Of a stretch of 64,000 bases of DNA, positions 30,735 through 49,700 are shown piece by piece; position 1 is the stretch's first letter; every line of letters starts with the position of its first letter. The notes under the pieces were generated by a model. It was not told the origin of the DNA. It searched no databases and saw only the letters and a program-made list of their open reading frames with translations. Made by a program: the position numbers and the translations under genes. Location of the stretch: positions 1 through 64,000 of the forward strand of contig CACZBD010000019.1 in assembly GCA_902779305.1 (NCBI GenBank), read 5' to 3'. The stretch is from an uncultured Lachnospiraceae bacterium. GTDB lineage: Bacteria > Bacillota > Clostridia > Lachnospirales > Lachnospiraceae.

Positions 30735-31739
30735 CTATTCTTCCGGCATATTGATCTTATTTGCAATCTTACGATTGATATCCTGCTCTTTAAAAGTCAC
30801 ACACTGGATGATGGAGTTCTTCACTTCCTTGGCCTTGGAGGATCCGTGTGTCTTGACGACCAGTCCGTTGAGTCCCAGAAGCGGTGCCCCGCCGTATTCG
30901 CTGGAATCAAAAGACTTCAGGGTCTTCTTCAGTGCCGGCTTGATGAGCGCACCGCCGATCTTGGTACGAAGGCTTGTCATCAGGCTCCCCTTGATCAGTT
31001 TGAGCAGGGTTCCGCCGACACCCTCATATAATTTCAGGATCACATTGCCGACAAAGGCTTCACAGACGATCACGTCCGCATCCCCCTGCGGGATGTTCCT
31101 TGCCTCGATGCTGCCGACAAAATTGATGTCGGGACAGGTCTTTAGGAGCGGGTAGGTTTCCTTGACCAGAAGGTTCCCCTTCTCTTCTTCCGCGCCGATG
31201 TTGACGATCGCAACTCTCGGGTTCGGAATGCCGATCACATGCTCCATGTAAACGGAACCCATCTTGGCAAACTGGACCAGATGCGAAGGTCTTGCATCCA
31301 CATTGGCACCGCAGTCGATCAGCAGGGAAACGCCCTTTTCGGTCGGGATCAGCGGTGCAAGCGGCGGTCTCTCGACTCCTTTGATGCGGCCTACGATAAA
31401 CTGCCCGCCGACAAGGATCGCGCCGGAGCTGCCTGCCGACACAAACGCATCGCAGGTTCCGTCCTTGACCAGATGCATGCCCTTAACGATCGAGGAATCC
31501 TTCTTCCTGCGGATCGCCATGACAGGTGCTTCCGCGGTCTCGATCACATCCGGCGCATCGATCAGCTCGATCCGGGCGCTGTCATAACTGTACTGCCCAA
31601 GTTCCCGTTGCATGTCATCCATGCGGCCGCACAGATAAATCTTAATGTCATCTCTTTCCGCAAGCGCTTCGATCGCGCCTTTAATGATCTCTGTGGGCGC
31701 ATTGTCGCCACCCATTGCATCCAGTGCAACTTTGATCAT
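30735..31739 (-). CDS. plsX: Phosphate acyltransferase PlsX
   Basis: The 334-residue enzyme makes acyl-phosphate from acyl-ACP for phospholipid synthesis. The start [20 protein letters not shown] is diagnostic, followed by [12 protein letters not shown] and [16 protein letters not shown] near the end. In Firmicutes it normally follows rpmF directly. Here the upstream rpmF copy is damaged (31892-32068) and a terminator separates the two, so plsX probably needs its own promoter in 31740-31844. I see no strong one there. Confidence 0.95.
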
Positions 31740-31844
31740 GAAATCTTACCTGCCTTACCCTGTTGCTTCCTAAATAACTATACAAGACATTTTTTTATAA
31801 ATCAACCCATAAAAATCATTTGATTTTCAATCGAGCCGGACAAT

Positions 31845-31873
31845 AAAATTCCCCGGGGGGAAACCCCTCGGGG
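31845..31873 (-). terminator. Terminator of rpmF remnant copy 1
   Basis: A GC-rich ten-base stem (31851-31860 with 31864-31873, one mismatch, AAA loop) is followed on the minus strand by AATTTT. It would stop transcription coming from the large gene at 32052 before plsX. Confidence 0.75.
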
Positions 31874-31891
31874 AATAACTTGCATGGTGAT

Positions 31892-32068
31892 TTATGCTTC
31901 CGTGTTGATGATCTCTTTCTTGTTATAAGAGCCGCATGCCTTGCATACTCTGTGCGGAACCATCAGCGCACCGCATTTGCTGCATTTTACCAGTGTCGGA
32001 GCGCTCATTTTCCAGTTCGCTCTTCTTCTGTCTCTTCTTCCCTTGGAAGATTTATTCTTCGGACAAAT
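31892..32068 (-). pseudogene. rpmF: Ribosomal protein L32 gene lacking its start codon, copy 1
   Basis: The frame encodes 58 residues beginning ICPKNKSSKGRRDRR and containing both L32 zinc pairs (CSKC, CKAC) and PHRVCKACGSYNKKE. Related L32 proteins start MSICPKNKS. Here the first codons are missing, there is no ATG, GTG or TTG in frame before Met21, and no ribosome binding site. Upstream sequence is the end of the large secreted-protein gene, whose stop codon (32052-32054) lies inside this frame. Initiation at the ATT would be the only rescue and is improbable. It occupies the place of native rpmF, in front of plsX. Confidence 0.8.
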
Positions 32069-35000
32069 GTATGATCTTAAAGGTGACCGTGGTTGTGCCG
32101 GCGTACCCGTTTTTGGCCTTGATCGTGATCTTGCCGGTGCCCTTTTTCACGTTGTTGCTGTAGCCGATGATGTCGTAGTAATCCGATGCGTTCGCATCCG
32201 GTATATCCGTAAAACTGCGTCCCTCCTTCTTCTGGACTTTTATCTTTCCTATCCCCGGGGTAATGGGTTTTCCGGTATATTCGAAGGTTCCTTCTACAGT
32301 AAATTTCAGTGCCGAAACGCTCGCCTTGGCAACCTTAAAACTCTGGCAGATTGTTCCGTTATAGTTATTGATACCTTTTGCATATACAAGGATCTCCGTC
32401 TTGTCAGGAAGGATATCTGTTGCCTGCACCTCCTCGCCCGGTTTGCGGTCGACTGTCTGTGTGACTGCATTCTTTCCTTTTCCCGTTACCACAGTGACAT
32501 CTTTTGTGAGGGTTGCATATTTATATACAAGATCCTTCTTATAATCCGTTCCCGCTTTGAGAACCGTACCTTCTGCATCCGTAATGACAGGCTTTCTTGC
32601 AAATTTATTGGCGGCGTTCACATAGACCATATCTTCAAGGCTCATATTTAAGTCCGCTATGTCTACAGATTTGATTGTGAAGTACTTCGTCGCCTGTTTG
32701 CTGTAATTCCCTTTAAAAGTGATTGTAAAGGACGGTCCGACATATTTCTTGCCTTTCATGGCATCATAATTACCCACAGCCTTATTATTGCTGTATTTTA
32801 CGGTATAATCCTTGCCCGCGACCAGCGGTATTGTCCCGAACTTACAGAAGAATACAGGTTGCACACCGTTCTTCTGATAGGAATATTCTCTGCCATCAGA
32901 CCAGTCTTTCTCTACACCTTTATCGTTAACACATACCGTCACTTTGGATGCATCGGCCGGAGCGATCTTGTAAGATGCCTTAATGGTTCCGCTAAAGCGT
33001 CCCATACCGGTAAATGTCATATTCACGGTTCCGGCATTCGCATTTCCGTTCTTCCCGTAGGAAACTGTAAAATCTTTATTCTCCGTTAAGGTTTCCCCGT
33101 TATATGTCAGCCGGTAAGCCGGAATAACTTTATCTCCTGTATAATCATATTTCGCCTCAATACCTTCAAGTTTCACATTGGCCTTGTTGAACGCAATTCC
33201 CTTGATCTGGAATGTAACGGTTCTGACCCCGAAATATGTACTCCCTTTTCCGCGGAGAACAACGGACGCTTTTCCGACAGACTTGTTATTTTCATATCGT
33301 AAAATCTCATACTGCTCTCCCAGATTCAGCTTATCGCCTTTGTAGGTAACGGTAAAGTCATTTTCATCAGGCTTTACCTGATAGCCGCTGCCTGTTTTCC
33401 ACTTCGGATCCGTAATGTCCTGTGCAGCAATGGATGATACCTTCACCTTGCTAAGGGATACATTATTTTCCCCCAGACAATACACGTATTCTTTTTTTAT
33501 AGTACCGTTGACTATATAATTGGAACCTGTTTTTTGCGAGATCTCAATCTCATATCGGCCCGGTTCTGTAACCGCATCCTGGGGCATCCCGCCCTTATTG
33601 TATTTCAGTGTATAGTCAACGCCCGGCTTTAAAACCTTCCCTGTCGCCTTGAGCGTCACTTTCGGATCCGGGCTTTGCGGTGCGGTTTCTCCCTTCACCT
33701 TTTTTTCCTTGACTTCAGGGCACGAATAAGTGATATCATTTTCACCGATCACATATTGCCGGATCGTGAAAGGGAACGTCTGCTTTCCGGAATAATTACC
33801 CTTCAATGTCACCGTAACAGATGCATTGCCGGATGCATTCACGTTATTTGCGTATTTCAGCGTGTAATCACTTCTGGGATCCAGCTTTGTTGTCTGGTAA
33901 TATACTCTCAGATCCGAAATCGTTACAGCCTTTCCGGTATAAACCAAGCCCTCAAACTGTGCCTTCGGGATCCAAAGTCCCGCATAATCAGCGGTAAAAT
34001 TAGCACGTTCATCTTCAAACTCACCCGTTATATCAACAGGTTCGATATCTCCCCAGGGGTTCACGGCCTTATACTCACATTTTTCGTGCACTATGCTGCT
34101 GTATTTCAAGTCTTTCCTGACGGCAATGGCATGAATCCAGGGGTTTGATTCGGTAATATCCGTTCCGGCAACAAGAGGCTGCCTGTATTCCCTGACCTGC
34201 GTTGTCTTTGGCTTATATCTCTGTGCATCTGCATCCCAGGTGATCACATTATCAGGGTTGTTAAACACCGTGGATGTCATATCGTCATAGTTATCGACAG
34301 CATAAAAGATCTGTGCATCCGCCGTTATGGTTCGAAGCGCCAACAGGTCTCCGTATCCTTCACCGTTTCCTGTAACTGCTTTGACATACGGCGTTTTTGC
34401 ACGTTCTTTTTCCAAAATGGCCACATTGATCCGTACGGTTCCCATTCCGCCACTGACCGTGACCGTTGCATCCCCGATCTTTTTCTTAATCATCAGGGTC
34501 AGTTTCACCTGATTGTTTTCTTCAGCTGATAATGTCCCTTCCACTATCGATGCATCTGTCGTCTTCACATCGTATTCTGTTGTCAGATGTTTTGCCGGCC
34601 CGATAGTGAGCGTAACCGGAACAGTTTCCGCTCCCGACATATCCTCATAGATCTTCACAATGGAAGCAGCGCTTGCCGTGATCGAAGAGACCTGTACAGG
34701 CGCGGCAGTTCCAAATTCCATCTTGTTTACCCATTGGTTTCCGTAGCTCAAAAGGCTCTGTTTCGTGACACCGTATTTGTCATAGAATTCCGCTTCGGTG
34801 CCCGGGTAATAGATCTTCAGTACATTGAACGTTTCCATATAGTGAAGGCTTACAAATATGTTGTAAAAGCCATCTTTAACGAGACTCTTCGGAAGATAGA
34901 TCTCCTTAAGAAAACTGCCTTCTCCGGGCAGTGCTCCCAATTTTTTTACTCCTTCCGGAATGATCAGTGTCGTAAAGTTCTTATTTCCGATGCCGTTAAA

Positions 35001-37433
35001 CGCACCGTCCTCAATCACCGGATCCATTTTCCATGTTGGCAGATTAGGGTCGGTCCATGTCCCTCCAAACTTGGGCAATACAATACCGGAAAGATTTGTC
35101 CCCTGAAATGCACTGTTCCCGATCCTGGCAAGTGTGGTTTTGGCGGGATCCGTAAATATGACTGTTGTCAGGTCCTTTTGCAGTTCAAATGCCTTGGCAC
35201 CGATCTCGGTTACCGAAGGCGGGATCAGAACCGTTTCAATATGTCCCGAAGTGTCTTCTGCATTCACCTGGCAGATATAATCCGGTATGGTTTTGATCCC
35301 CGTCTCAAACGTGACCTTTCTCAGGGCCTTACAATGTGAGAAGGTTCCCATCGCACTTACTGTTTCGAGTTTTTTCGGGATCGTGATCTCAGGAAGACTT
35401 TCACAGTCGGCAAAGCACCCTCCTCCCATTTCCGTGAGGTTTTCGGACAGCCTGACATAGGTCACTTTTCTCATTTCCTGAAAATAAAAGGTACCGGCAA
35501 TCTTACCGATATGATCATCCATGATAATATCCGTAACTGTTGTTTTTGCCATATTTCCATAGAGTGAATCACTGATGATCCCCTGGTTGTTCAGAACCGC
35601 GTTGTTCTGCGTGCCAAAAACATAAAGCGCCACATACTGTTTTCCGTCTGCAAGATAACTGTATAACTGACCGTAAGCATTGGTGCCCAGTTCCTTTTCC
35701 GCAAGCGTCTTGTCATATACTTTGACACTGGATGCGACAGCGCCGGGCCTTAAATACTGCAAGGGTACCGGCGAGCCTGTTTCTGCCTGCCAGTGAGCCT
35801 TCAGTGTCTCGCCTTCTTCCAGTCGGCAGGGCGAATACATGGTAATACGCTTTCCGTTTTGGTTGAACCAGCCAAGGAAATCCTGTCCCTTTTTAGTGAC
35901 AAGCGGAAGCGAACCGTACATGGCGCCCTTTGCAACCCTTTTGCTTGTTTCTCCTGTGATCGTTCCGCCGTTTGCATCAAAGCTGACTGTACATCTGACC
36001 ACATCACTGTTCTCATAATCCGGTGCTACAAAATAACCGACATATCCGTTTCCGTTTGACAGGTTTCCGTTTGTCTTGTTGACCACATATCGCCCTGTTC
36101 CGACAGCATTGCCGGAGTTTCCGTGCACAACATTGAGCGTAAGGGTGCTTCCGTTGTCTTCCACACTTTCCAGCAGTGTGGTATGACTCAGACTTTGGTC
36201 CGGCGCGTATGTCACACTGGATCCTTTCCATACCCACAGGATCACATCGCCTTTTCCCGGCGTATAGGAACCGCCGCCCCATACCGTTTCACTCCACGGA
36301 TGATATGCGGCAGTTGTATCCGCTGTAAATGTATTGGCATTGGCGCCCTTGCTGCTGTTGACAAGACTCGTGGGCACGCCTGCCATGCGGATGCACCAGC
36401 TCGCAAATTCCGAACACCATGCGTTCCCGGAACTGCCCAGGAATCTTCCGTATTCACTGACATCGCCTTCTCCGTCCGTATTGCCGCCGCCATAATCTGC
36501 TTCGCTGTCTCCCTCATGATACCCGATCTGGGATCTTGCGATCGCGATTACATCATCGCGGTAATTACCTGTCAGTTCTGTCTGCAAAAGAGTTGTGTAG
36601 TAAGAACTGCTCTTGTAAATATCATTTTCTGTCGCGGCAAGGTCCTCATTAAAAGGTGTATTGCTAAATACGCCAGTATTATCGAGAACGACACTGTCAG
36701 ACAGGTTCACGTCCGTCAGCGCATAACAATTCTGAAAAGCCCAAAGCCCAATACTTTCAAGCGAATCCGGCAGACTGACGACCTCCAGCTTCTGAAAATT
36801 CTGCATGGCACGGTCACCGAGCCTTGTGATTCCTTCGCAGACCACCAGTTTCGTTACCTGTGCGCTGTAAGTTCTCCACGGCTGGTCAGATGTGGACGGA
36901 CTTCCGCTGCCATTTTTCGCGTAATTCCTTGTCGCGCCGCTCCCGCTAAGAGTAAGCGTACCGTCATCGGAAAAGGACCACTTAATGTTTGTTTCCGGTT
37001 CATCACCGTCTGCAGCCCCCAGATATTCTCCGGACACATAGAAATCTTCCGCTTCTTCAGCTTCTTCCGGGATCACTTCTTCAACATAATCTTCTGTCGG
37101 ATACAGAATATCATCCAGTTCACAAGAAGACAGGCTTTCTTCGACAGGATTCTCATCGGTTTCCACCGCATCCTCCGGTTCCGATATTATACTCTCATCG
37201 GCTGGAGTGTCATTCTGACTCTCGTCCGTATTTTCTGCTATGAATTCCTCTTCCGCCTGTTCTAAAGCATCAGGTTCTGCAATCTCATCCGAAGCGTCTT
37301 CCTGTATAATTTCATCCGCCCATGCCGGCTCGATTTCTTCTGCAAAAGTCTGTGCAGGCAGCGCCGCCAGGATCATTGCCGAAGCAAGCAGCCCGGTCAA
37401 AACTCTTTGCAGGATCCGATTCGCTTTTTTCAT
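32052..37433 (-). CDS. Large secreted protein with BspA-type leucine-rich repeats, a CHAP amidase-like domain and YDG/MBG-like repeats
   Basis: The 1793-residue protein has a signal peptide (cleavage after QTFA, about 31) and an acidic linker (to about 140). Then come a BspA-type LRR (about 195-260), a CHAP/NlpC-like domain (about 290-470; AWCSEFASWC with Cys340, SLSHTTLLE with His417) and an InlB-type repeat (about 480-550; VSFDANGG, FLGWFNQNG). A second LRR_5 block and about eight repeats of the type YTGK..DYTLKYANN..VTVTLKGNYSGK reach the C-terminus. No LPXTG anchor is seen. Its last five residues (HLSEE) and stop codon come from the rpmF remnant. ATG 37433 follows AAGGAGAG and is preferred to 37523. 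Confidence 0.85.
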   Translation of the reverse strand: MKKANRILQRVLTGLLASAMILAALPAQTFAEEIEPAWADEIIQEDASDEIAEPDALEQAEEEFIAENTDESQNDTPADESIISEPEDAVETDENPVEESLSSCELDDILYPTEDYVEEVIPEEAEEAEDFYVSGEYLGAADGDEPETNIKWSFSDDGTLTLSGSGATRNYAKNGSGSPSTSDQPWRTYSAQVTKLVVCEGITRLGDRAMQNFQKLEVVSLPDSLESIGLWAFQNCYALTDVNLSDSVVLDNTGVFSNTPFNEDLAATENDIYKSSSYYTTLLQTELTGNYRDDVIAIARSQIGYHEGDSEADYGGGNTDGEGDVSEYGRFLGSSGNAWCSEFASWCIRMAGVPTSLVNSSKGANANTFTADTTAAYHPWSETVWGGGSYTPGKGDVILWVWKGSSVTYAPDQSLSHTTLLESVEDNGSTLTLNVVHGNSGNAVGTGRYVVNKTNGNLSNGNGYVGYFVAPDYENSDVVRCTVSFDANGGTITGETSKRVAKGAMYGSLPLVTKKGQDFLGWFNQNGKRITMYSPCRLEEGETLKAHWQAETGSPVPLQYLRPGAVASSVKVYDKTLAEKELGTNAYGQLYSYLADGKQYVALYVFGTQNNAVLNNQGIISDSLYGNMAKTTVTDIIMDDHIGKIAGTFYFQEMRKVTYVRLSENLTEMGGGCFADCESLPEITIPKKLETVSAMGTFSHCKALRKVTFETGIKTIPDYICQVNAEDTSGHIETVLIPPSVTEIGAKAFELQKDLTTVIFTDPAKTTLARIGNSAFQGTNLSGIVLPKFGGTWTDPNLPTWKMDPVIEDGAFNGIGNKNFTTLIIPEGVKKLGALPGEGSFLKEIYLPKSLVKDGFYNIFVSLHYMETFNVLKIYYPGTEAEFYDKYGVTKQSLLSYGNQWVNKMEFGTAAPVQVSSITASAASIVKIYEDMSGAETVPVTLTIGPAKHLTTEYDVKTTDASIVEGTLSAEENNQVKLTLMIKKKIGDATVTVSGGMGTVRINVAILEKERAKTPYVKAVTGNGEGYGDLLALRTITADAQIFYAVDNYDDMTSTVFNNPDNVITWDADAQRYKPKTTQVREYRQPLVAGTDITESNPWIHAIAVRKDLKYSSIVHEKCEYKAVNPWGDIEPVDITGEFEDERANFTADYAGLWIPKAQFEGLVYTGKAVTISDLRVYYQTTKLDPRSDYTLKYANNVNASGNASVTVTLKGNYSGKQTFPFTIRQYVIGENDITYSCPEVKEKKVKGETAPQSPDPKVTLKATGKVLKPGVDYTLKYNKGGMPQDAVTEPGRYEIEISQKTGSNYIVNGTIKKEYVYCLGENNVSLSKVKVSSIAAQDITDPKWKTGSGYQVKPDENDFTVTYKGDKLNLGEQYEILRYENNKSVGKASVVLRGKGSTYFGVRTVTFQIKGIAFNKANVKLEGIEAKYDYTGDKVIPAYRLTYNGETLTENKDFTVSYGKNGNANAGTVNMTFTGMGRFSGTIKASYKIAPADASKVTVCVNDKGVEKDWSDGREYSYQKNGVQPVFFCKFGTIPLVAGKDYTVKYSNNKAVGNYDAMKGKKYVGPSFTITFKGNYSKQATKYFTIKSVDIADLNMSLEDMVYVNAANKFARKPVITDAEGTVLKAGTDYKKDLVYKYATLTKDVTVVTGKGKNAVTQTVDRKPGEEVQATDILPDKTEILVYAKGINNYNGTICQSFKVAKASVSALKFTVEGTFEYTGKPITPGIGKIKVQKKEGRSFTDIPDANASDYYDIIGYSNNVKKGTGKITIKAKNGYAGTTTVTFKIIHLSEE

Positions 37434-37501
37434 GATTCTTCTCTCCTTAACCGTTGTTTGTTTTGATTCAGGTGTCTCTCCCCGGATACACTCACAAAGT
37501 G

Positions 37502-37544
37502 ATTCTAGCATAGAGCAGTGCACTCCGCTACCGACGAAAGTCTA
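37502..37544 (-). promoter_or_regulatory. Promoter of the 1793-residue protein gene with shared 17-bp box
   Basis: The box TAGACTTTCGTCGGTAG (37544-37528) lies exactly 20 bp before TGC-TAGAAT (extended -10, hexamer 37507-37502). The same box and spacing occur in front of the 2255-residue gene (50617-50575). No good -35 hexamer is present, which fits an activator-dependent promoter. Confidence 0.65.
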
Positions 37545-37601
37545 GGTTTCAAATATGTGCTCACGCAAGCACGGTACACACTTGATAGCCGTATCACACA
37601 A

Positions 37602-37629
37602 AAAATTCCCCGGGGGAAAACCCTCGGGG
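37602..37629 (-). terminator. Terminator of rpmF remnant copy 2
   Basis: The hairpin has the same arms as the terminator at 31845-31873 (CCCCGAGGG / CCCCCGGGG) with an AAAA loop, and AATTTTT follows on the minus strand. It would shield the 1793-residue gene's promoter from transcription coming from the right. Confidence 0.75.
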
Positions 37630-37647
37630 AATAACTTACATGATGAT

Positions 37648-37824
37648 TTATGCTTCCGTGTTGATGATCTCTTTCTTGTTATAAGAGCCGCATGCCTTGC
37701 ATACTCTGTGCGGAACCATCAGCGCGCCGCATTTGCTGCATTTTACCAGTGTCGGAGCGCTCATTTTCCAGTTCGCTCTTCTTCTGTCTCTTCTTCCCTT
37801 GGAAGATTTATTCTTCGGACAAAT
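37648..37824 (-). pseudogene. rpmF: Ribosomal protein L32 gene lacking its start codon, copy 2
   Basis: The 177-base frame differs from copy 1 by one silent base (GGT to GGC) and starts at the same point, ICPKNKSS. An in-frame TAA lies three codons upstream, so no normal start exists. A perfect consensus promoter ends only five bases before the ATT, so any transcript would begin at about the first codon with no leader. Because both copies keep an undamaged reading frame, the duplication looks recent or selection acts on the sequence. Confidence 0.8.
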
Positions 37825-37829
37825 GATAG

Positions 37830-37858
37830 ATTATACAGGCCCTTTCAGGCTTTGTCAA
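37830..37858 (-). promoter_or_regulatory. Perfect consensus promoter abutting rpmF remnant copy 2
   Basis: TTGACA (37858-37853), 17 bp, TATAAT (37835-37830). It begins 20 bases after the stop of the 1542-residue gene. The expected start site falls at about 37823, inside the remnant's first codon. It may be the old rpmF promoter joined to a truncated gene, or it may drive a short non-coding RNA ending at 37602-37629. Confidence 0.65.
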
Positions 37859-37877
37859 CAAAAATCTGTCTGAAATG

Positions 37878-40800
37878 TCAAGGTATAAAACTGATCGTGA
37901 TCTTTGATACGGCTGTGGTCCTGACCAGCGGATTTCCGTATCCGTCATTTCCGTGTGCCACCGTGTATTCCACAAAGCATGTCCGGTCAGCCGCACCTTT
38001 TGCGCTCTGTATATAGGAAAGTTTCTCTTCGCTCAGATCATTCTTTAAACTGATCGATGCGAGCTGTCCATCAGTCGTTTCGGCAAACACAAAGTAATCC
38101 GTGAAGTGATTGGGCTGCCCTTTGACATTGCAGTTATAGATTTTTGTATAGGACAGTTCCCTGACCTCTCTTCCGTTTGTCGAAAGTGTAACAGGAGCCG
38201 GGGTTTTCTTGGAAATCCTGTAACTTGCTGCCGGCCTGAACGATCCCTTTACAACTCTGGGCCTGATACTTTTTACCGTTACACTCGCAGGAATCGTTTC
38301 CGGGATAAATTTCCCTTCTTCCTCTCTTCCAAGCACGACGGAAAGCTTGTAGGAACGGACCGGTACATACCCGGATATGTTGAGTTCCACGCTGTACTTT
38401 GTGCCCGACGGCGTAAACGAAACCGCCTCGGTCCCGTTAAGAGCGGGACATGCGGACCGAAGATCTGCATAGAATGGCTGCGCTTTCTGCTCATCCACGC
38501 TGTCACAGGAAATGCGTATGGCTTTTTCTGTCGGATCATAATTCTTTGCAGTGACGATCAGGGTCAGCTTCTGTTCACCCGGCATGCCGCTGATGATGTC
38601 ATTCTGGGCTTTTGCCGTCAGAGTGCTGTCCTTGCAGTCTGCATAAGCCGTATTGGTAACAGTATAGTTTACGGTCTTCTTATTATGTACATCCTGAAGA
38701 GAAAGTGTTGCCTTATCCTTTGTGACACTGATCAGGAATTCTCCCGTCCCATAATCCTGTTTGAGGATGGTACCGCCCTTTGCTGTCAGCTTATAATTGG
38801 TCAATGCATCCAGAGCTTCCCAGTCCGCACTGTCCCGGTCCTTTTTCATGACCTTAACCGGCAACGCTGTATTCTTCGTTCCGACGAAGTCGATATTTTC
38901 CTGACCCGCCGCGTTACCGTCAACTGCAAGGCACATCTCTTTGGGTTCCGCGTAGGTGATGCTGACCTTGATCTGTTCTTTATCATTTCCGCCGTCCGTC
39001 GTTGCCGCGCCAAGGGCTACATTCTTTGCGGTCTTTTCGGCCAGAACATGCACATAGGAAGGATCGGTTGCAAGCGGCATGGCGGTCTTGTTGGAAGTGG
39101 TAAATTTCAGTTTTTCCGGCTCGATCAGGTATTCGGACAGTTCGTACCTGTAGTAATCGTCTTTGATCGGAGCCCCCTCCATAAAGGGTGCCAGGATCGC
39201 GCCGTTTGCCTCTTCCGTAGTCAGTATATCTCCGTCTTCGCCGATTTTATTGTATTTATGCGTTGTCTCATCATAAGACAAAAGCACCAGTTCGCCAATC
39301 TCAAGCGGCGCATTTTTGATGATGATCGGCGCCGAAATACCGTAAGTCATGTTTTCGCCAAAATCCTCTGCTACGGCTTTGATACAGAACGAAACACTGT
39401 CGCCTTCCTCTTCCGGGATCTCGTACGAAGCATCAACTACAACCTTCCCGTTTGTGATCTTGACCTTATCATAAAGCGACGATTCCGCCTCAATGCTCTG
39501 TCCGTTTTTATCAACAAGATAATAGGAGGCTTTTGCCGTCTGCGGTTTGATCCCTGACGTTTTGTTATAGATCGTTTTCGTTGTGATTGTCAGCGCCTTG
39601 TTTTTCTGTTTCAGGAATTCTTTTGCGGCCGGTTCGACCGTGATCTCATCAATCGCCTTGTAGACCGTCACCTGCAGGGATACCGGTGCCTGATAGATCT
39701 GCTGTGCCGCGCCGTAAGGCATGATCTGTATGGTATGTTTTCCGGTCAACGTATTTGCGTCAGAAGACAGAAGCAGAAAGTCATTCGCTTCTTCGATCCT
39801 GACCTGAAGTTTCTGTGTATCGGAGCAGTCTGTGATATCTTCTGCCGTTACCGACAGACAGGTTGCACCCTTACTGTAGCTTAAGATCGCGGCAAGCACA
39901 TCCTGCTCTCCCGCATAGAATGCTGTCTGTTTTTTGTTCAGCTTCACCTGTGTCGCAAAGACAGGATCCTGCGTAGATACCTTCAATTCCTGAACGTGAT
40001 CTTCTCCGGTCTGCACGTGGATCTTTGCCGCTGCGCTTTCTGCGCTTTCGGTATCATAAGATAAAGTCTGTCCCGGCAGCGTATTCACGCAGGATACAGA
40101 CACATCAAAATCCCACGCAAAGCCTTCTCCGCTCATTTTCGAATTTACCGGAAAAGTCGCATACTGCCGGTAGTTCTTTGTAATCTTATCGTTGATCTGA
40201 TCGATCTTTGCGATCTGCGCATCCGTTGTTTCATCGGGATAGTCCTGCAATACCGGATAGGTGCGCTGTACATAATACGTTTTGGCAAGAAGCAGATCCG
40301 TAGGAGTAACAACCCCTTCTTTTGCTTTTGGCGTGATACTTACCTTGTAATAGGTTTTTCCCTGATAGGGTCTTGCGATCGCGATCGACGGAAACTCCAG
40401 CGTAAACGACACATCCGTCTGCTTGCATACCGATGCGGCAGGTGTCTGCACCTGAATCTTCCGGTCCTTTACGATCCGAAGCGGAATAACCGCCAGATCC
40501 GTGCCGGCATTCATTGTATTATAAAGATGAATATAGAGGAGCTTATTCTCATCCGTTTCCTTAATCTTCGTCTGAATATTCAGTCTCGCGGTGAGCGCCT
40601 TGCCAGGCACCTGAAGATCAACCTTGGCATAATCTGAATCTGCAGCAACCGCTTCTTGGGCACCGTCCGTTTCTCCGTATGTGATCTTGTACGCAAGGTT
40701 CAGCAGGACGGGGAATCCCCTAACATCCGCTTCGCCATTTGCATTCCGATTGCTCCGGATATTGATCACCGCACGTGAGTCCGTACAGATCTCATATATA

Positions 40801-42506
40801 CCGGTCGCTTCTTCTTTTGGCAGAGAAGTTATGGTAGAAATGCTTTTTAATGTAGGAACCGTTTTTATGGAAAAACTTACCCCCAAGTCCTGTCCGCTCG
40901 TCTCGGGGTATTCCGGATTCGGATACCTTAATATATAGGATTTGGAAGTGTTTCCATGTGAAGAATCTATTTTCAGCAGAAGGGTCTTTCCATCCTCGGA
41001 TAATTCCCAATCGTAATGGGCATAGGGCCGCATGACATCATTAAAAGAAATCCGTTTCTCTCCCTTATATAGTTCAGCTGTATAATCTCCGCATTCCAGC
41101 CAGTAATCTATACTTGTGCCGCGGGAATACGCCATCGGTAAAACAACAGTGCTACCCTTTCTCTTGATCTCAATTCTGTACCGGTCTATCGTTTTGATCT
41201 CTACTTCAATATTACCGATGACCGGAAGGCTGCTCGAAAATGCAGTATTCCTGGAAGTTCTGATACAGCTATACCGGTTTGTGGAGACGCTTTTGACCGT
41301 GTAATAAAATATCCACTGATATTCAGCGGCGGTTGCGCCAAAGGTAACCGTTTGACCGAAGTCAACAGGGTAGGTCAGCGTGCAGATCTTGGGAGCGCCT
41401 TCCTCCCCGCCCTGATAGGAAGCATCAGAAGGCTCTATATCTGTATCGCCATTGCGCAGGAAAACCGAATCAAGATACTTTTTGAGATCGGCTTCGGATT
41501 CGGTTTCTCCAACCGGATAAGAGATCCGAAACGTCAGCTGACGCGGCGCACTCTGTTCCTGAATGACCACGGAAGAAGATTTCGGAAGGTCTTTCCACAA
41601 AATGTAGTAACTGTATGCACCGTCTTCCGTCCTGCCGTCACTCTCTAAGAAACGGACAGCGGAGTCATGTCCGACATAATAAACCGCGGGGACTGCATCA
41701 TCCGGCGCATGCACTGAAAACCTGATCCCATCCGCCTTATAGGTCAGATGATAACGGTTCTCATTTTCCAAATCCTTGAATGTAAGATCCGATTCCTCTG
41801 CAACCTCATAGGATGCCCCCAAAAGCTGCATATCAAAATCCAGTATGCGGTCTACAGGTACCGCCGTCGCAACAACAGTCAGATCCTCTGTTACCTGCTC
41901 GATCTCATACGAAAACAGAGAAACATCGTCAACCTCTGTACCGTTTATGAAAATCGTTTCGAGCGTATAGTCATCATCAGCCATCACATCATAATGAACC
42001 GGATCGCCTTCTCTTACAGTACAATATAAGTCGGACGAAGGGGTGATCTCCGTACTCTCCTGACAGGAGATCTGCGCATGATACCCAATGAAATGAATGG
42101 TCTTAGGTTTCGGCTGGGTGATCTCGACACGTACAGGGTCGGAAGAAAACGAAAATGTGAAATGAAGATCTTCCCCTGCTTCAGCAGGTTCAATCTCCTC
42201 CGGGTCCCGATTTTCATAGATGACCAGGACTTTGGGCCGGTATTTCTCATTGGGATCAGGTCTGATGGTGATCGAAACCGTGGTATCGCTTAGCAGGTAC
42301 TCATACTCGGAATCAGAAATCTTCGGAAATTCGTTCTGATTCACCTCATCCATCACGGACAGCACATTCACATCCGCAGCAACCGATACGGGAATACTCC
42401 CGTCGTTCTGCTCCGGTTCTGAAAGTCCCTCTGAAGCATAAACTGCCACGGCAGTGCAAAAAAGCAGTGCCGTGGCAATGATAAGACCGAACCATGTTTT
42501 TTTCAT
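37878..42506 (-). CDS. Large secreted beta-rich protein of unknown function
   Basis: The 1542-residue protein has a signal peptide (WFGLIIATALLFCTAVAVYA, about 5-24). The rest appears to be a chain of beta-sandwich/Ig-like modules without a repeat family I recognise. Traces include LTVTAKNYDP-like strand pairs and Cys-poor, Thr/Ser-rich stretches. There is no LPXTG motif or C-terminal membrane helix (it ends KITISFIP). Unlike its two large neighbours it has no YDG/MBG-type repeat and no shared 17-bp box. It starts 72 bases after pta, so it may be read from the pta promoter. A small hairpin (42522-42540) lies just upstream of its ribosome binding site. Confidence 0.75.
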   Translation of the reverse strand: MKKTWFGLIIATALLFCTAVAVYASEGLSEPEQNDGSIPVSVAADVNVLSVMDEVNQNEFPKISDSEYEYLLSDTTVSITIRPDPNEKYRPKVLVIYENRDPEEIEPAEAGEDLHFTFSFSSDPVRVEITQPKPKTIHFIGYHAQISCQESTEITPSSDLYCTVREGDPVHYDVMADDDYTLETIFINGTEVDDVSLFSYEIEQVTEDLTVVATAVPVDRILDFDMQLLGASYEVAEESDLTFKDLENENRYHLTYKADGIRFSVHAPDDAVPAVYYVGHDSAVRFLESDGRTEDGAYSYYILWKDLPKSSSVVIQEQSAPRQLTFRISYPVGETESEADLKKYLDSVFLRNGDTDIEPSDASYQGGEEGAPKICTLTYPVDFGQTVTFGATAAEYQWIFYYTVKSVSTNRYSCIRTSRNTAFSSSLPVIGNIEVEIKTIDRYRIEIKRKGSTVVLPMAYSRGTSIDYWLECGDYTAELYKGEKRISFNDVMRPYAHYDWELSEDGKTLLLKIDSSHGNTSKSYILRYPNPEYPETSGQDLGVSFSIKTVPTLKSISTITSLPKEEATGIYEICTDSRAVINIRSNRNANGEADVRGFPVLLNLAYKITYGETDGAQEAVAADSDYAKVDLQVPGKALTARLNIQTKIKETDENKLLYIHLYNTMNAGTDLAVIPLRIVKDRKIQVQTPAASVCKQTDVSFTLEFPSIAIARPYQGKTYYKVSITPKAKEGVVTPTDLLLAKTYYVQRTYPVLQDYPDETTDAQIAKIDQINDKITKNYRQYATFPVNSKMSGEGFAWDFDVSVSCVNTLPGQTLSYDTESAESAAAKIHVQTGEDHVQELKVSTQDPVFATQVKLNKKQTAFYAGEQDVLAAILSYSKGATCLSVTAEDITDCSDTQKLQVRIEEANDFLLLSSDANTLTGKHTIQIMPYGAAQQIYQAPVSLQVTVYKAIDEITVEPAAKEFLKQKNKALTITTKTIYNKTSGIKPQTAKASYYLVDKNGQSIEAESSLYDKVKITNGKVVVDASYEIPEEEGDSVSFCIKAVAEDFGENMTYGISAPIIIKNAPLEIGELVLLSYDETTHKYNKIGEDGDILTTEEANGAILAPFMEGAPIKDDYYRYELSEYLIEPEKLKFTTSNKTAMPLATDPSYVHVLAEKTAKNVALGAATTDGGNDKEQIKVSITYAEPKEMCLAVDGNAAGQENIDFVGTKNTALPVKVMKKDRDSADWEALDALTNYKLTAKGGTILKQDYGTGEFLISVTKDKATLSLQDVHNKKTVNYTVTNTAYADCKDSTLTAKAQNDIISGMPGEQKLTLIVTAKNYDPTEKAIRISCDSVDEQKAQPFYADLRSACPALNGTEAVSFTPSGTKYSVELNISGYVPVRSYKLSVVLGREEEGKFIPETIPASVTVKSIRPRVVKGSFRPAASYRISKKTPAPVTLSTNGREVRELSYTKIYNCNVKGQPNHFTDYFVFAETTDGQLASISLKNDLSEEKLSYIQSAKGAADRTCFVEYTVAHGNDGYGNPLVRTTAVSKITISFIP

Positions 42507-42521
42507 ACGCTTACCTCTTCC

Positions 42522-42540
42522 CCCCTAAAACGCAAAGGGG
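42522..42540 (-). other. Small hairpin next to the ribosome binding site of the 1542-residue gene
   Basis: CCCCT/AGGGG arms surround a nine-base loop. The G-rich arm adjoins the GGGGAAGAGG Shine-Dalgarno region, so pairing could affect initiation. The stem has only five pairs. Confidence 0.3.
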
Positions 42541-42578
42541 CAACATGTTCTCATGACTTTTTAAAAGCCAAACTCAGA

Positions 42579-43577
42579 TCAGACAGAAGCCTGAACTGCA
42601 GTGATCGCTACAACGCCTACGATATCATCCGCGCTGCAGCCTCTGGAAAGATCGTTGACGGGGCGTGCAACACCCTGCAGAACAGGACCGAACGCATCTG
42701 CTTTTGCAAGACGCTGTGCGATCTTATAACCGATATTTCCTGCATCCAGATTCGGGAAGATCATGACATTGGCAGAACCTGCCACGTCGGATCCCGGTGC
42801 CTTGGATGCGCCTACGGAAGGAACAACGGCTGCATCAAACTGCAGTTCTCCGTCCACTTTCAGTTCCGGATATTTTTCCTTTGTGATATTTGTTGCTTCC
42901 ACCATCTTGTCAACAAGCGCGTGCTTTGCACTTCCCTTTGTGGAATGGGACAGCATTGCGATCCTAGCTTCCTTGCCTACCAGCAGTTCAAAACTCTTGG
43001 CGCTTGATTTTGCGATCGAAGCCAGTTCCTGCGGGTTCGGATCCTGATTGAGGCCGCTGTCCGCGAACAGGAAGGTTCCGTTTGCGCCGTATTCGCAGTT
43101 CGGCACATCAATGATAAAGAATGCGGATACCAGGTCAGCATCCGGCGCGGTCTTTAATACCTGAAGCGACGGTCTTAACACATCCGGTGTCGCATGGCAT
43201 GCGCCCGCAACCATTCCGTCTGCATCACCCATCTTGACCATCATGACGCCGAACATCAGATAGTTGTTTAAGAGCGCATCCTTTGCTGCTTCTTCCGTCA
43301 TTCCCTTTGCCTTACGCAGTTCAAACAGTGTCTGTGCGTATGTATCGAATTTATCACAATTTGCAGGATCCACTACCGGGACATCGGAAAGGTCCAATCC
43401 CTGTGCTTTTGCATCCGCAAGCACTTTTTCCTTGTTACCGATCAGGATCACATTGGCAATCTTCTGCTGCAGCACCTTGGATGCCGCCTCCAGTGTTCTT
43501 GCGTCCTCTGTTTCCGGAAGCACGATCGTCTTCACATTCTGTTTTGCTCTTTCTTTGATTCCATCAATAAATGACAT
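42579..43577 (-). CDS. pta: Phosphate acetyltransferase
   Basis: The 332-residue enzyme interconverts acetyl-CoA and acetyl-phosphate. Family stretches are IVLPETEDARTLEAA, MVKMGDADGMVAGACHAT, IAMLSHSTKGSAKH and the end region VLQGVARPVNDLSRGCSADDIV. The start MSFIDGI at 43577 has AAGGAG, and an ATG further upstream would add an unrelated tail. Acetate kinase (ackA), its usual downstream partner, is not in the window; the 1542-residue secreted protein gene follows instead. Confidence 0.95.
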   Translation of the reverse strand: MSFIDGIKERAKQNVKTIVLPETEDARTLEAASKVLQQKIANVILIGNKEKVLADAKAQGLDLSDVPVVDPANCDKFDTYAQTLFELRKAKGMTEEAAKDALLNNYLMFGVMMVKMGDADGMVAGACHATPDVLRPSLQVLKTAPDADLVSAFFIIDVPNCEYGANGTFLFADSGLNQDPNPQELASIAKSSAKSFELLVGKEARIAMLSHSTKGSAKHALVDKMVEATNITKEKYPELKVDGELQFDAAVVPSVGASKAPGSDVAGSANVMIFPNLDAGNIGYKIAQRLAKADAFGPVLQGVARPVNDLSRGCSADDIVGVVAITAVQASV

Positions 43578-43611
43578 GATAAGTACTCCTTCCTGGGATT
43601 TAATTACGGGA

Positions 43612-43657
43612 AAACCCCGCAAACCTATTTAGTACAATAGCACAATTTGCGGGGTTT
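43612..43657 (-). promoter_or_regulatory. 12-bp inverted repeat overlapping the pta promoter
   Basis: AAACCCCGCAAA (43612-43623) pairs perfectly with TTTGCGGGGTTT (43646-43657) around 22 bases. The minus-strand exit has TTTT, so it may end the transcript of the 2255-residue gene. A promoter TTGATA, 17 bp, TATTGT reading into pta overlaps the right arm. The same DNA may therefore be both terminator and pta promoter region. Confidence 0.5.
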
Positions 43658-43703
43658 ATCAATGGAAATGAGCCCTGTTCTATGCGCTTTGCCGGATAGA
43701 GCC

Positions 43704-46700
43704 CTATAGCACTGCTTCCCACTGCGCATACAGTGTCCAGTTCTCACCGTAGAGCAGCGCAGTGATCCAGGATGGGGTGAAAGCGGCCTGATCCGCAAAA
43801 TTCTTCCCCGTGCCGTCCGGCCTCGTGTTCCAGCCGGCAAAAGTCACTTCCGTGGCGGTTACCCATCTGCCCCTGGCGTCCTTCTTCTGTACCTTGAACG
43901 CATTCTTCGCAAGCTTTCCGCCTTTGGGGATCACGGAATCCTTCATGGTGCCGACAACCTGATATTTCGATTCAAAATCATCCAAACTAGTGACAATGCC
44001 TTCCATAAGAAGTGCAGTATACAGATCTGAATCCTCATTGTACAGGTTCGCATCATAGTGGATCGTTTCATACATCTGTCTGGCAACGATCTTAAACGTT
44101 ACGGTTTTCTCGCCTGCATATCCTTTCTTAGGATTACCCTTCAGGACGACCGTTGCTGTTCCGGCATTCGTATTCTTATCATAGGATACGATCGTAAAGT
44201 CGGAATCATCCGGGTGTTCCGGATCAAATGCCAGCGGTTCTTCTACACCCTTTAAGGTCACCGTCAGCTCATCCGCTCCCAGCGTGATCGGGCTGCCGGT
44301 ATACATCCGGTCCGGGATCGTTACGCTTGCTTTGGTAAAGTCTTTTTCCGCAAAGCAGAAGGTTCCGGCGGAACTCTTATCATAGTATCCCTTGCTCTGC
44401 ACGCTGACAAAGATCCTTGTTCCGGCCGGAATGCAGTGCGTGTCAAGAACATCTGTTCCTACCGATACAGATTCTTCCTCCCATTTACCTGCCTTCTTCA
44501 CGGTGACTACCGTATCTTCCGCATAGGTATATTCGATGTCTTTTGCTGCGCTGTAGTCCGTTCCTGCCTTTAAGATCTGACCGCCGGTATCACGCACCGT
44601 GATCTTTGTTTTTCTGAACAATCCGGTTTTATTCGGCTGAGCCACAATGTCAGTCGCAAAAAGATCGTGTAACTCTCCGTTTGTGATCGTAAAGGTTCTT
44701 TCAGTCTTTCCAGCAAAACGGCCCTTGAAGGTGATCGTTACGGTCGGAGCAATGCTCTTTGATCTATTCGTAGCGTTATAGTCGCCGGGTTTTGTGTTGT
44801 TGGACCAGACAAGGGTGTAATCAACTCCTGCCTTCAAGGTCTCGTCATCTCTTCCCGTATAGCTGTAAACCACAACCGGTTCAGGCTTTACGCCGCCTTT
44901 CACGAACGGTTTTTTCGGAACATCATTTTCGGATGCATCCGGCATAGCTTTCCATTCTTTCGTGGTGTCATCGGGCAAATAGACCGAGATGGTTCCCATC
45001 TCTGCAACATCCTGTGCTTTGATCTTGAACGTCTTCTTTACAGTGCCGGCATAATTTCCCTTTCCTGTAAAGATGACCGTTGCGGTTCCGGGTTCAGAAT
45101 TATTTTCATAGGAAACCGTATAATCCTCTCCCTTTGTAAGGTCGTCATACTTTTGAGTCCCGTTTTCCTTATATTTATACTGCAGATCGATCCCATACGT
45201 TTCACTTTCATCCGTAGGACCTGCCACTTCAAACGGCAGACCGGTGTAAACAAACGCATTCTTGTCATAAAGATCAGCGTATTCTGTGGACTTGGTGATG
45301 TCCTTAAGGAATGTTACCTTCTTCATATCAATTCCCGTGATCTTGAATGGCTTCGATACCATTCCGACATAATCACCCATGCCGAATACATACACGGTTG
45401 CCGTGCCGATCTCTTTGTTCGCAGCATAAGCCAGCCTGTAATCTGTTCCGCTTGTAAGCGGCTTGTTTTTATATGTGATATCCCAGTTAAAATCACCTGC
45501 TGCGGACTTCAGCGGTTTTGTCGATGCAGTTTCAGTTACCCCGAGCTCAAATGACTTTCCGCTATACTTCTGATCGGGGATAGAAGGGAATTTCGCTGCC
45601 GAGATCATCGTCTCATCTTTGGCAACATAAACCTTAAGGTCTCTTTCCCCTGAAAAATTGCCGCCTGCAACGCCCCTTACCTTAATGGTATGGATTCCTT
45701 CGTCACTCAGCGTATCCTGATCGAGCGTATAATCCGTTCCCTTCTTAAGCGTAACAGCCTTTCCGTCTATATTGCATTTCAGAACCGGCGCGATCTTGAC
45801 CGGCTTACCTTTGTTATAGGCAACAACCAGATGCGCCTGCGTAAGTCCTTCCTTTACAGCCTCATCAAGATCCGTGTAAACTTCTGACGCGATATCAATC
45901 GGATTGATCGTGAATGTTACGGACGCGGTATCCTTAAAGTTTCCTTTTCCCTTAATGGTCACGGTCGGCGGGATGGGCTTGCCGTTCTTTACGCTGCCTG
46001 CATTGCCGGCATTCGTGTTATTGGAATAAGAAAGCGTATAATCGGCAGATGACAGTTTACGCCTAAACGACCCGTAGTAAACCTCCGGTTCCGGCTTCTG
46101 TGCCTTTCCGTTATAGGCGACATCAGGGATCCTTTTGACGATCAGCTGTCCGGCCGCAATATCCGTGATCGAAGCATGTGCCGTGATCGTAACGGTCTCC
46201 CCATGCTCGGTCGTGATGACAAGGGATAGATCAGACGTCCCGGAAGTATTGAAGTCATCACGGGGTATCACTTTAAACGTTTTGCTCTCTCCTGCTGCGA
46301 TCTCATTCCCCTCTTCCGGTAATCCGCCATAAATAGTGAATTTATGACCAGCATTTTGTGTAACATCTGCGATGGTCTGCTTTTGATTGCCCGTGTTTGT
46401 GAGCGTAACAGTCACAGCCTTAAATCCGCTTGCTCCTCCGAGCTCATTCACAAGCTTTTCGCCAAAGTCAATGCTCGCCGGTGTGGCAGTAAGACCATAA
46501 ACCGGTTCAGGCGCCGCCGTGATCTCATACTTTGCGGTGAACGTCCGTGAAATACCTGCATTCGTTGAGATCGTGAGTTCCTCAGAGTAACTGCCGGCTT
46601 CTGCTCCTTCTATGTTCTTCGGCCAGATCTTAAACGTCATGGACTCACCCGGCTCAAGCTTTGACTTTGAATATGCGCTTACTACGAATTTTTCGGAAGC

Positions 46701-49700
46701 AAATGATGCAAAAGTCAGTTCCGTATCACCGGTATTTGTGACGGTAACGATCGCCTTGTCCCCTTCGGGATACGGATCGGGATATTGCCCCTCGACAAAT
46801 GACGCAGCAGTAACAACCGCAGGTTCGATCGTAAAGGCCGGATTCGTGACTACGGTCGGTTCCGGGCCGATCATGACTGTACCGTTGTAGTTCTGCCCGT
46901 CTGCATCCTTAAATCTTTTCGATGATGCATCGAAACTTCCGCCTGCCGGGAGAAGCACCTTAATGTCACCTCCCAAAGTCAGGCTTCCGTCGATCCTGAG
47001 CGGTTCGGAATTACCTGCTGCCGTAAGCTTTGCACTGTCTGAAACAGTCAGGGCGGTTACCTGCATACTATCGTTTGTGTTGCTGCCGGTGATCTCAACC
47101 TGTGCATTTCCGCTGATCGCTGCCCGGGGGATATATTCACCGCCCGCCAGGTCATTTTTTCTTTTCAGTGTATTTCCCGAAAATTTTCCTCCGCTTGCCG
47201 TGAAGGAATCCTGTACGCTGACAGAGAAACTGTTTGAAAAATCACACTCTCCTCCGGATATCTCAAAAGAATTCAGATATGCACTGAAATTGCTTTTGCT
47301 TGTGTGCAGCTTTCCGCCTGTTACGATGAGTTTGTCCACACAGGAGCCATGTGAAGTACTTCCGAGGTCATCTGTAAGGCAGATATCACCGCCCTCGATC
47401 TTCAGGGTATCCAGCGTGGTATCATTGCTGATCCTGGTGGAAAGTTTTCCGTTATTGCTTCCCGTAAAAGTCAGGGTTACGGGATGATCCCCTTCCATAT
47501 AAGTATTGGTTAAATAAATGTTCTTCCCGTATTTTCCCCGGCTGAGGTCATCACCGTCTGCAAGGACGATCGTCGTATCCCCGACCAGCTGGATCTCACC
47601 CTCCGGGAGATCCTGCGGTCTGTATTCACCTCTATATCCAAATGTGTAATAGGCATACAGAGTTCCGGTAGAGGTTTCTCCACCGGAGACGATGTTTACG
47701 GTCAGCGCCGGTTCTCTCGAGGAATTAATCCCGGCAGTTCCTGTATAAGTGATCGTGCATTTTGTTTCTTCACCGGGATCAAGGGTGGAATCCGCAAACG
47801 CAAATGTTGAATTCGTTTCACCTGTGATCGAGGAGATCGTCAACGGATCATTCCCTGTATTTTTAATATAGAATTTTGAGGTTTTAGTTTCATCCGTAAT
47901 ACAGAACGGGATCAGAAGACGCTTTCTTCTTGCCGAATCCGTCCCTGCGGCATTTCCGAATTCGTCTGTGTATTCTAAGGAAACCGTCGCTTCCTCTACC
48001 GCGAACTTCAGCTCAATATTCATGATAAAGCCCTGAACCGTTGTCAATGTAACAGTTTCATCATGGCTGCCGGCTGTTAATCCGCCTTTCGGCAGAATAC
48101 TTAACACTATCTTCGAGTTCTTACCTAATGATGCCGGTGTTCTCGAATAGGTGAGTGTGTATTTTTCTGAAGTTACATTATTAAACTGGATAGACTCTTC
48201 ACCCGTATTCGTGATTTCTATATTCAGTGGGGATCCACCGGTAAAGTCATATCCTTCTATGACCGTTCCAAAATCAGCCGTCGCTTTTGCACTGTCTTCT
48301 TCATCGATCGCACCACCGAAAGAATCGTTTTCCGATGATACGGCGGTGAAGGCTGCCTTTGCATTACTTTTCTTTACCTGCACGGAAAGCGGAAGCGTAT
48401 ACGTTGCAGCGTTCTCCGAAATGGCAAACACCATGTTCTCGCTGTAGGCACCGGCTGCAAGTCCCGGTTTAGGCTGTACCGTAAATGTGTAGGTTTCGTT
48501 AACCGCAAGTTTCGGCCACTCGGTTACGTTTGCGGTAAAGTTTGTTGCGCTCGCTCCCGTGATCGTGCAGGGAAGATTGCTGTCGTTTCTGACGGTCACC
48601 TCCTGTGAAGTCGGACTGGAGCCAAGATACAGAAGGGAAAATTCCACGGCTGTAGGTGAAAACGCAAGACTGTACTGCGGATCTACAACCGAAAATCCTG
48701 CCGTAAAAGATTCTGATACTCCGGCATCCGTTTTGATCGTAAAGTTTTCCTCGTATCTTTGGGCAGATGAAGGGTTCTTTTTTTTCGGCCAGATCTTAAA
48801 TGTCATGGTATCTTCCGGGGCAAGCTTTACCTTGGAATATCCGCTGAAATAAAAGTTCTCGGGCCTTAGTGCAGAAAATAAGAGTTCCGAATCTCCCGTG
48901 TTTGTCACGGTAACCACTTTCTTATCGGCTTCCGGATACGAAGAAGGATAACAGCCTTTTACATAAGCCCCGCAGTCAACATATTCCGTGCTGATCGTAA
49001 AGGAAGGATTTTCAGGAGTCTCGGATGGTTCCGGTCCGATCTTGACCGTGCCGTAATAATCCTGACCGGCTGAATCCTTGAACCTTTTCCATGTTGGATC
49101 GTATCTTCCTCCTGCCGGGAGCAGAACCTTGACGTCATCTTCCAAAGTCAGGGTGCCGCGTATTTCCAGCGGGGTGGTTGCATTGGATGCTGCTGTGATC
49201 ATTGCACTGTCTGAAACTGTCAGATCCTTTACAGACATGTAGTCACTGCTGGTTTTACCGGTGATCTCCACCCGGCCATTCCCACTAATCACAGCCTCGG
49301 GAATGATTGTTTCACCACTACTACTCCTTACCAGCTTGTTCCCGATGAATTTACCGCCGCTTACTTTAAAGGAGTCCTGCACATAAACAGCCCAGCTGTT
49401 TGAAAAGTCACACTCTCCTCCGGAAATCTCAACCGACTTAATGCGGGCACTGAAGTATGTATTGTTAATGCCAAGCTTCCCGCCCGTCATGATGAGTTTG
49501 TTCAACCAGGATGAATGTGAAGAACTGCCGATACTATCCTTCAGGCAGATATCCCCTCCTTCGATCTTCAGCGTGTCCAGTGTGGTCTCATCACCGATCG
49601 CAGTGGAAAGCTTTCCACTATCATTTCCCGTAAAAGTCAGGGTTATGGGATGATCCCCATCCATACGAGTGTTTGTCAGATAAATATCCTTTTCGAATTT

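Follow-up and report, generated by a model that had tools for sequence, protein, structure and literature searches.

Organization of the locus

The window, by which we mean the whole 64,000-nucleotide stretch of DNA that was analysed, comes from a gut-type Lachnospiraceae bacterium and carries two copies of rpmF, the gene for ribosomal protein L32, on its minus strand. Read along that strand, the order is pta (phosphate acetyltransferase; 42579..43622), a 1542-aa ORF (37878..42506), a promoter (37830..37858), rpmF copy 2 (37648..37824) with a terminator-like stem (37606..37618), an 1823-aa surface-protein gene (32052..37523), rpmF copy 1 (31892..32068) with its own terminator-like stem (31849..31862) and plsX (30735..31739). 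The two outer genes, pta and plsX, are the usual upstream and downstream neighbours of rpmF in the genus, and copy 1 is the plsX-proximal copy.

The 1823-aa ORF encodes a large secreted-type protein with BspA-type LRR, CHAP and List_Bact_rpt domains. Its length is counted from a mechanically assigned GTG; an ATG with a ribosome-binding site (RBS) at 37433 is the likelier start, and homology to the corresponding gene of a relative (G030) begins at about 37543. The 1542-aa ORF, which lies upstream of copy 2, gave no Pfam match (E up to 1) and no NCBIfam match (E up to 0.01), and a homologue of it adjoins pta in a second relative (G034). We also note a 2255-aa ORF (43704-50471) with choice-of-anchor D type domains and with internal duplications that lie 2166 bp apart and share about 70% identity (window positions 46615-49626). 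In this genome ackA lies away from pta, at a contig edge (locus L059, 1-165; contig C18 of this genome, G000), beside what we take to be part of an rRNA operon. That contig end was checked for a hidden rpmF and none is present.

The direct repeat and the two L32 frames

A sequence-only reading of the window had described two L32 frames, both cut at one base just before codon 3, differing by a single silent base and lying in a 225-bp direct repeat around a surface-protein gene. Each of these points was borne out, with both frames on the minus strand. The repeat units, which consist of rpmF and its terminator, span 31845..32069 (copy 1) and 37602..37825 (copy 2) and are 98% identical over 225 bp; an extended version of the repeat covers 244 nt at 94% identity. 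Both frames open with ATT TGT CCG, which corresponds to codon 3 of the relatives, and run from there to the stop codon with one silent difference in 177 bases (GGT/GGC). Neither has a start codon, as ATG, GTG and TTG are all absent from the frame in the stretch that runs from the stop before it to the ATT, and just upstream of the ATT neither copy has an RBS. Against the L32 domain (PF01783) each copy scores 80.2 bits, compared with a cut-off of 21.3.

The terminators of the two copies had been read as the same; they are alike but not identical, since three substitutions and one indel set them apart in the stretch from the stop codon to where the stem ends. Divergence after the stop is thus four in 47 bases, compared with one in 177 in the coding region (Fisher p 0.007, or 0.03 with substitutions alone), and this contrast suggests that constraint acted on the frames during most of the period after the duplication. 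If so, the 5' ends were lost only recently, or else the frames are still of use and some expression is left.

Upstream of copy 1 the surface ORF runs into the L32 gene and stops at 32052, so that the two are fused. The promoter scan showed no minus-strand promoter just upstream of this copy, which would be transcribed by read-through from the surface gene. Copy 2, on the other hand, is abutted by a sigma-70-type promoter, TTGACA-17-TATAAT, which matches the consensus at 12 of 12 positions in the promoter scan. The ATT lies 5 nt beyond the end of the -10 box, and a transcript of copy 2 would therefore start at or next to the ATT. The proposal that the locus is built of repeated units of a surface gene followed by an rpmF tail accordingly describes copy 1 but is incomplete for copy 2, which has a promoter of its own before it. 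A 45-bp segment at copy 2 (37824-37868) matches the rpmF promoter region of G034 with 93% identity. The span from TTGACA to codon 3 is 34 nt in copy 2 and 108 nt in G034, a difference of 74 bp, and the copy-2 junction has 2 nt (CA) in common with the start of the G034 leader. The native sides of rpmF are split between the two copies, the promoter side lying with copy 2 and the plsX side with copy 1.

Search of the assembly for a normal L32 start

The assembly comprises 3.25 Mb in 32 contigs and is 94% complete. When it was searched for further copies with the 225-bp block, only these two matches were obtained at E <= 0.001. Copies 1 and 2 are also the only L32 genes above the Pfam cut-off, with three further weak matches below it. 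The intact rpmF that the sequence-only reading had thought might exist elsewhere in the genome was thus not found above that cut-off; both genes above it are start-less.

The RBS-start pattern of rpmF gave no match in the assembly with two mismatches allowed. With a 140-bp query made up of the G034 promoter and leader, 13 matches were obtained. The single strong one (E 8e-13) falls on copy 2, where it represents the promoter part, and the remaining 12 are weak (E 0.0025 or more). The next-best match (C1:2555, E 0.0025) comprises promoter letters only and, on reading, follows the end of another surface-type ORF. On the results of the Pfam, RBS-start pattern and promoter-leader searches, we rejected the idea that the assembly holds a further complete rpmF, or the missing 5' part at some other place. 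A normally started L32 gene is absent from this assembly.

The main-operon ribosomal-protein genes served as a control on the assembly. A start codon is present in all 24 (23 ATG, 1 TTG) and an RBS-like motif in 23. This count drew on ORFs that already had a start, and the N-termini were therefore compared with the NCBIfam bacterial models as well. The products match these models from profile position 1-3, which indicates that none of them is N-terminally cut.

rpmF in the genus and close relatives

A start codon and a GGAGG-type RBS were found in all 35 other genus genomes with rpmF (31 ATG, 4 GTG); the 36th, G027, is 59% complete and gave no match above the L32 cut-off. A wider tblastn search covered 129 loci, consisting of 40 from the genus (some repeating one genome, and one from this genome), 80 named loci and nine of this genome's own. 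L32 is present at 102 of these, with 93 ATG starts, six GTG starts, two that are unreadable at contig edges and one that is start-less. The sole start-less L32 is this genome's own copy 2 (locus L200).

The adjacency pta-rpmF-plsX occurs in 24 of the 35 genomes, the remainder having gaps, missing neighbours or short contigs. Judged from these comparisons, the pta-plsX interval usually houses rpmF together with its own promoter. No plsX was seen in the 10 kb or so downstream of rpmF in G014 and G012, where ABC-exporter-like ORFs are found instead (L072, L070), and in G004 a transporter-like ORF lies between rpmF and plsX (L063); these names were given by eye. YceD (DUF177) normally lies upstream of rpmF. 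It was not above the cut-off in any of the 23 genus genomes searched (G000-G022) and is present in ten of 14 genomes from other families of the order. The idea that YceD was a neighbour lost in this genome was rejected, since it went undetected in all 23.

The best four genomes for matches to the repeat are this genome, G034, G030 and G028. The close relative G028 has the simple arrangement. In G030 the tail of pta is followed by a homologue of the 1823-aa gene, then by rpmF with promoter, leader and ATG, and then by plsX; the homologue is split into two frames (L041, 1926-2040). In G034, one contig has pta followed by homologues of the 1542-aa ORF and the 1823-aa gene, with two further ORFs, recognized by reading, lying between these homologues. 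A second G034 contig carries, from its end, an intact promoter-leader-rpmF-terminator unit, followed by a plsX leader joined to a pta tail. Beyond these lie a different surface-type ORF of 1540 aa, an rpmF remnant that is truncated at its 5' end and has a terminator, and then plsX. From the 13-base end that they share, these two contigs probably adjoin, which would put the intact rpmF just behind the homologue of the 1823-aa gene. We note that both contig ends (the low end of L222 on C40 and the high end of L040 on C35) carry CAGAGTAGAAAAC, next to which the sequences are unrelated; an insertion with target duplication, placed after the surface gene and ahead of the rpmF promoter, might give such a pattern.

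The sequence-only reading had regarded normal starts in relatives at the same junction as a sign against its account. Starts of ATG or GTG with an RBS are indeed what all 35 genus genomes have. As for the junction, the G030 rpmF with its normal start lies directly behind the same surface gene, and the same would be true of G034 if its two contigs join.

In two of the best four genomes, this one and G034, rpmF or a part of it occurs twice around a surface gene; in both, the copy nearer plsX follows that gene directly and has a cut 5' end. The junctions differ, the G034 remnant being cut at a different place from the copies described here. A surface-type ORF is also found upstream of rpmF in G016. 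Homologues of the 1823-aa gene itself were detected in three of the 36 other genus genomes (protein search, E <= 1e-100); those of G030 and G034 occupy this locus, whereas the one in G015 and a second, weaker copy in G030 lie elsewhere. A recent transfer of pta from the G034 lineage was suggested by a protein identity of 98% but was rejected as the DNA identity is 88%.

Origin of the start-less copies

The interpretation that we prefer, and that we put forward tentatively, is that rpmF was duplicated by recombination around the surface gene and that both copies then lost their 5' ends, leaving decapitated remnants that give little or no L32. From the observed repeat, its promoter, the fusion and the arrangements in the relatives, we infer an order of events, a templating step and a loss of function as follows. 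In this lineage, large surface-protein genes would be able to enter the pta-plsX interval immediately ahead of the native promoter-rpmF-terminator unit, and in this genome recombination would have duplicated that unit around the 1823-aa surface gene. Copy 1 would then have lost its promoter, leader, RBS and first two codons, which would give the fusion to the surface gene, and copy 2 its leader, RBS and first two codons, which would bring the promoter up against codon 3. One truncated copy may have acted as the template for the other during recombination, a non-homologous tail being trimmed to the start of homology and joined through the 2-nt microhomology, and this would yield the common end point. 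Given the identical end points in both copies, a single truncation spread by recombination would be the simplest explanation. Both copies are most likely remnants that make no or very little L32.

Three points count against this interpretation. The templated spread of the truncation was not observed, and the frames have apparently been constrained since the duplication, as the coding and after-stop differences given above indicate. Loss of L32 would, moreover, be costly, and a genome without any L32 would be unusual, which raises the likelihood of an assembly fault. The available part of one report describes L32 as deletable in Glaesserella parasuis with a growth cost (PMC11381497); in another, as far as its accessible text goes, E. 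coli rpmF is among the genes without insertions and is essential by TraDIS only (PMC5821084).

Two further ideas were tried and set aside. A structured leader does not explain the deletion, because the G034 leader folds no better than shuffled sequences (z -0.64). Retroposition of a transcript-shaped block, from codon 3 to the end of the terminator, has nothing in its favour beyond that shape.

Among the alternatives, an assembly artefact survives best, and we regard it as somewhat unlikely. On this explanation the real promoter, leader and start were dropped from one or both copies by the assembler or gap closer at the border of a collapsed repeat. Both losses do end exactly at the repeat border, L32 is rarely dispensable at no cost, the assembly is incomplete and in 32 pieces, and the contigs of the relatives G028 and G034 break at or near rpmF. 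The two copies, however, differ at several positions and were resolved separately, and no further piece of rpmF is found in the assembly at E <= 0.001. The bases at the copy-1 junction, ATA, match the surface-gene end of neither relative, although this comparison is with the relatives' ends and not with the former end in this genome. The intact N-termini of all 24 main-operon ribosomal proteins also argue for a sound assembly, and the loss of two different stretches is not predicted by any simple assembler failure.

Two independent deletions could also have reached the same end base, either by chance or at a local hot spot such as the CA microhomology at copy 2, but we consider this improbable. 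The 2 nt that the copy-2 junction has in common with the G034 leader start are consistent with such an event, and redundancy after the duplication would permit losses, as in the G034 remnant. That remnant is cut elsewhere, however, identical end points are improbable for unconnected events, and leader folding, the only hot-spot feature examined, was unremarkable.

More doubtful still is the reading in which copy 2 is the organism's only source of L32, translated by non-AUG (AUU) initiation from an mRNA that starts at or within a base or two of the ATT. The placement of the consensus promoter, from which transcription should begin at the ATT or beside it, fits this reading, as do the sign of coding constraint since the duplication and the cost that an L32 null would carry. 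Leaderless initiation generally favours AUG, which argues against it, and no such start is found in any of the 35 genus genomes. AUU starts are known in bacteria (PMC13009471), but in the part of that report available the non-canonical starts are predicted to rely on extended Shine-Dalgarno motifs, and copy 2 has no RBS.

Fixed-site integration or programmed exchange of cassettes made of a surface gene and an rpmF tail, generating surface variation, is very improbable: surface-type genes do recur beside rpmF in this genome, G030, G034 and G016, and a direct repeat flanks the surface gene here, but no recombinase was found among the five ORFs scanned with Pfam (30735-50471), inverted repeats of at least 16 nt are absent from 31700-44000, the junctions in G030 and G034 differ from those here, and the repeat is a whole housekeeping gene with only two copies in the genome. 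Of the earlier suggestion, we retain the derivation of one copy from the other by recombination (or of both from a recent duplication) and discard the fixed site. The 5.7-kb unit could be lost by ordinary homologous recombination between the repeats, as had been proposed, although this was not observed; such an exchange would only delete the surface gene and would leave rpmF still start-less. A surface-variation switch is unlikely, and the locus looks like recombination wreckage at a variable surface-gene locus rather than a switch.

Implications

A correct assembly would mean that, in a natural genome, none of the detected copies of a near-universal ribosomal-protein gene has kept its normal start. 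Such a genome would represent either a wild L32-null organism, useful for the study of L32 function, or an instance in which a ribosomal protein is translated by leaderless non-AUG initiation. In the latter case, recombination would have fused a consensus promoter to codon 3, removing the leader, RBS and AUG, with L32 still being made. A correct assembly would also mean that surface genes accumulating at a housekeeping locus can damage the adjoining gene. If the assembly is at fault, the case is a warning about repeats at rpmF.

Comparison with known systems

Duplications of bacterial ribosomal-protein genes exist, for example as zinc-independent paralogues. The locus described here is similar in having a second copy of a ribosomal-protein gene but differs in that both copies are of the same zinc-ribbon type, with identical residues, and are start-less. 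Among the matches listed, the open-access literature contained nothing on this rpmF arrangement, and nothing relevant was found there on the dispensability of L32 in Bacillus.

The wider bacterial cluster is yceD-rpmF-plsX, according to the available part of PMC5049393. The present locus resembles both this cluster and the native pta-rpmF-plsX order in having rpmF beside plsX, with copy 1 keeping the plsX side and copy 2 the promoter side. It differs in that two start-less copies are split by a surface gene and, with respect to the wider cluster, in that the genus genomes searched gave no YceD.

Arrays of T6SS effector-immunity modules in Vibrio offer a closer comparison. As described in the accessible portion of PMC5361080, these arrays are proposed to grow by stepwise accretion of modules with displaced remnants, which is attributed there to homology-facilitated illegitimate recombination, a process treated in the available part of PMC3240628. 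In both cases new surface or effector modules lie beside a conserved anchor, orphaned or truncated copies are left behind, and a junction may be homologous on one of its sides while the second side has short homology or none. The CA at the copy-2 junction and the join of plsX leader and pta tail in G034 would be compatible with this pattern. The leftover here differs in being a ribosomal-protein gene, and its copies are near-identical, as would be expected for duplication rather than import. Within the portions of the reports that were available, the insertion of Vibrio T6SS modules with orphaned remnants appears to be the nearest described process.
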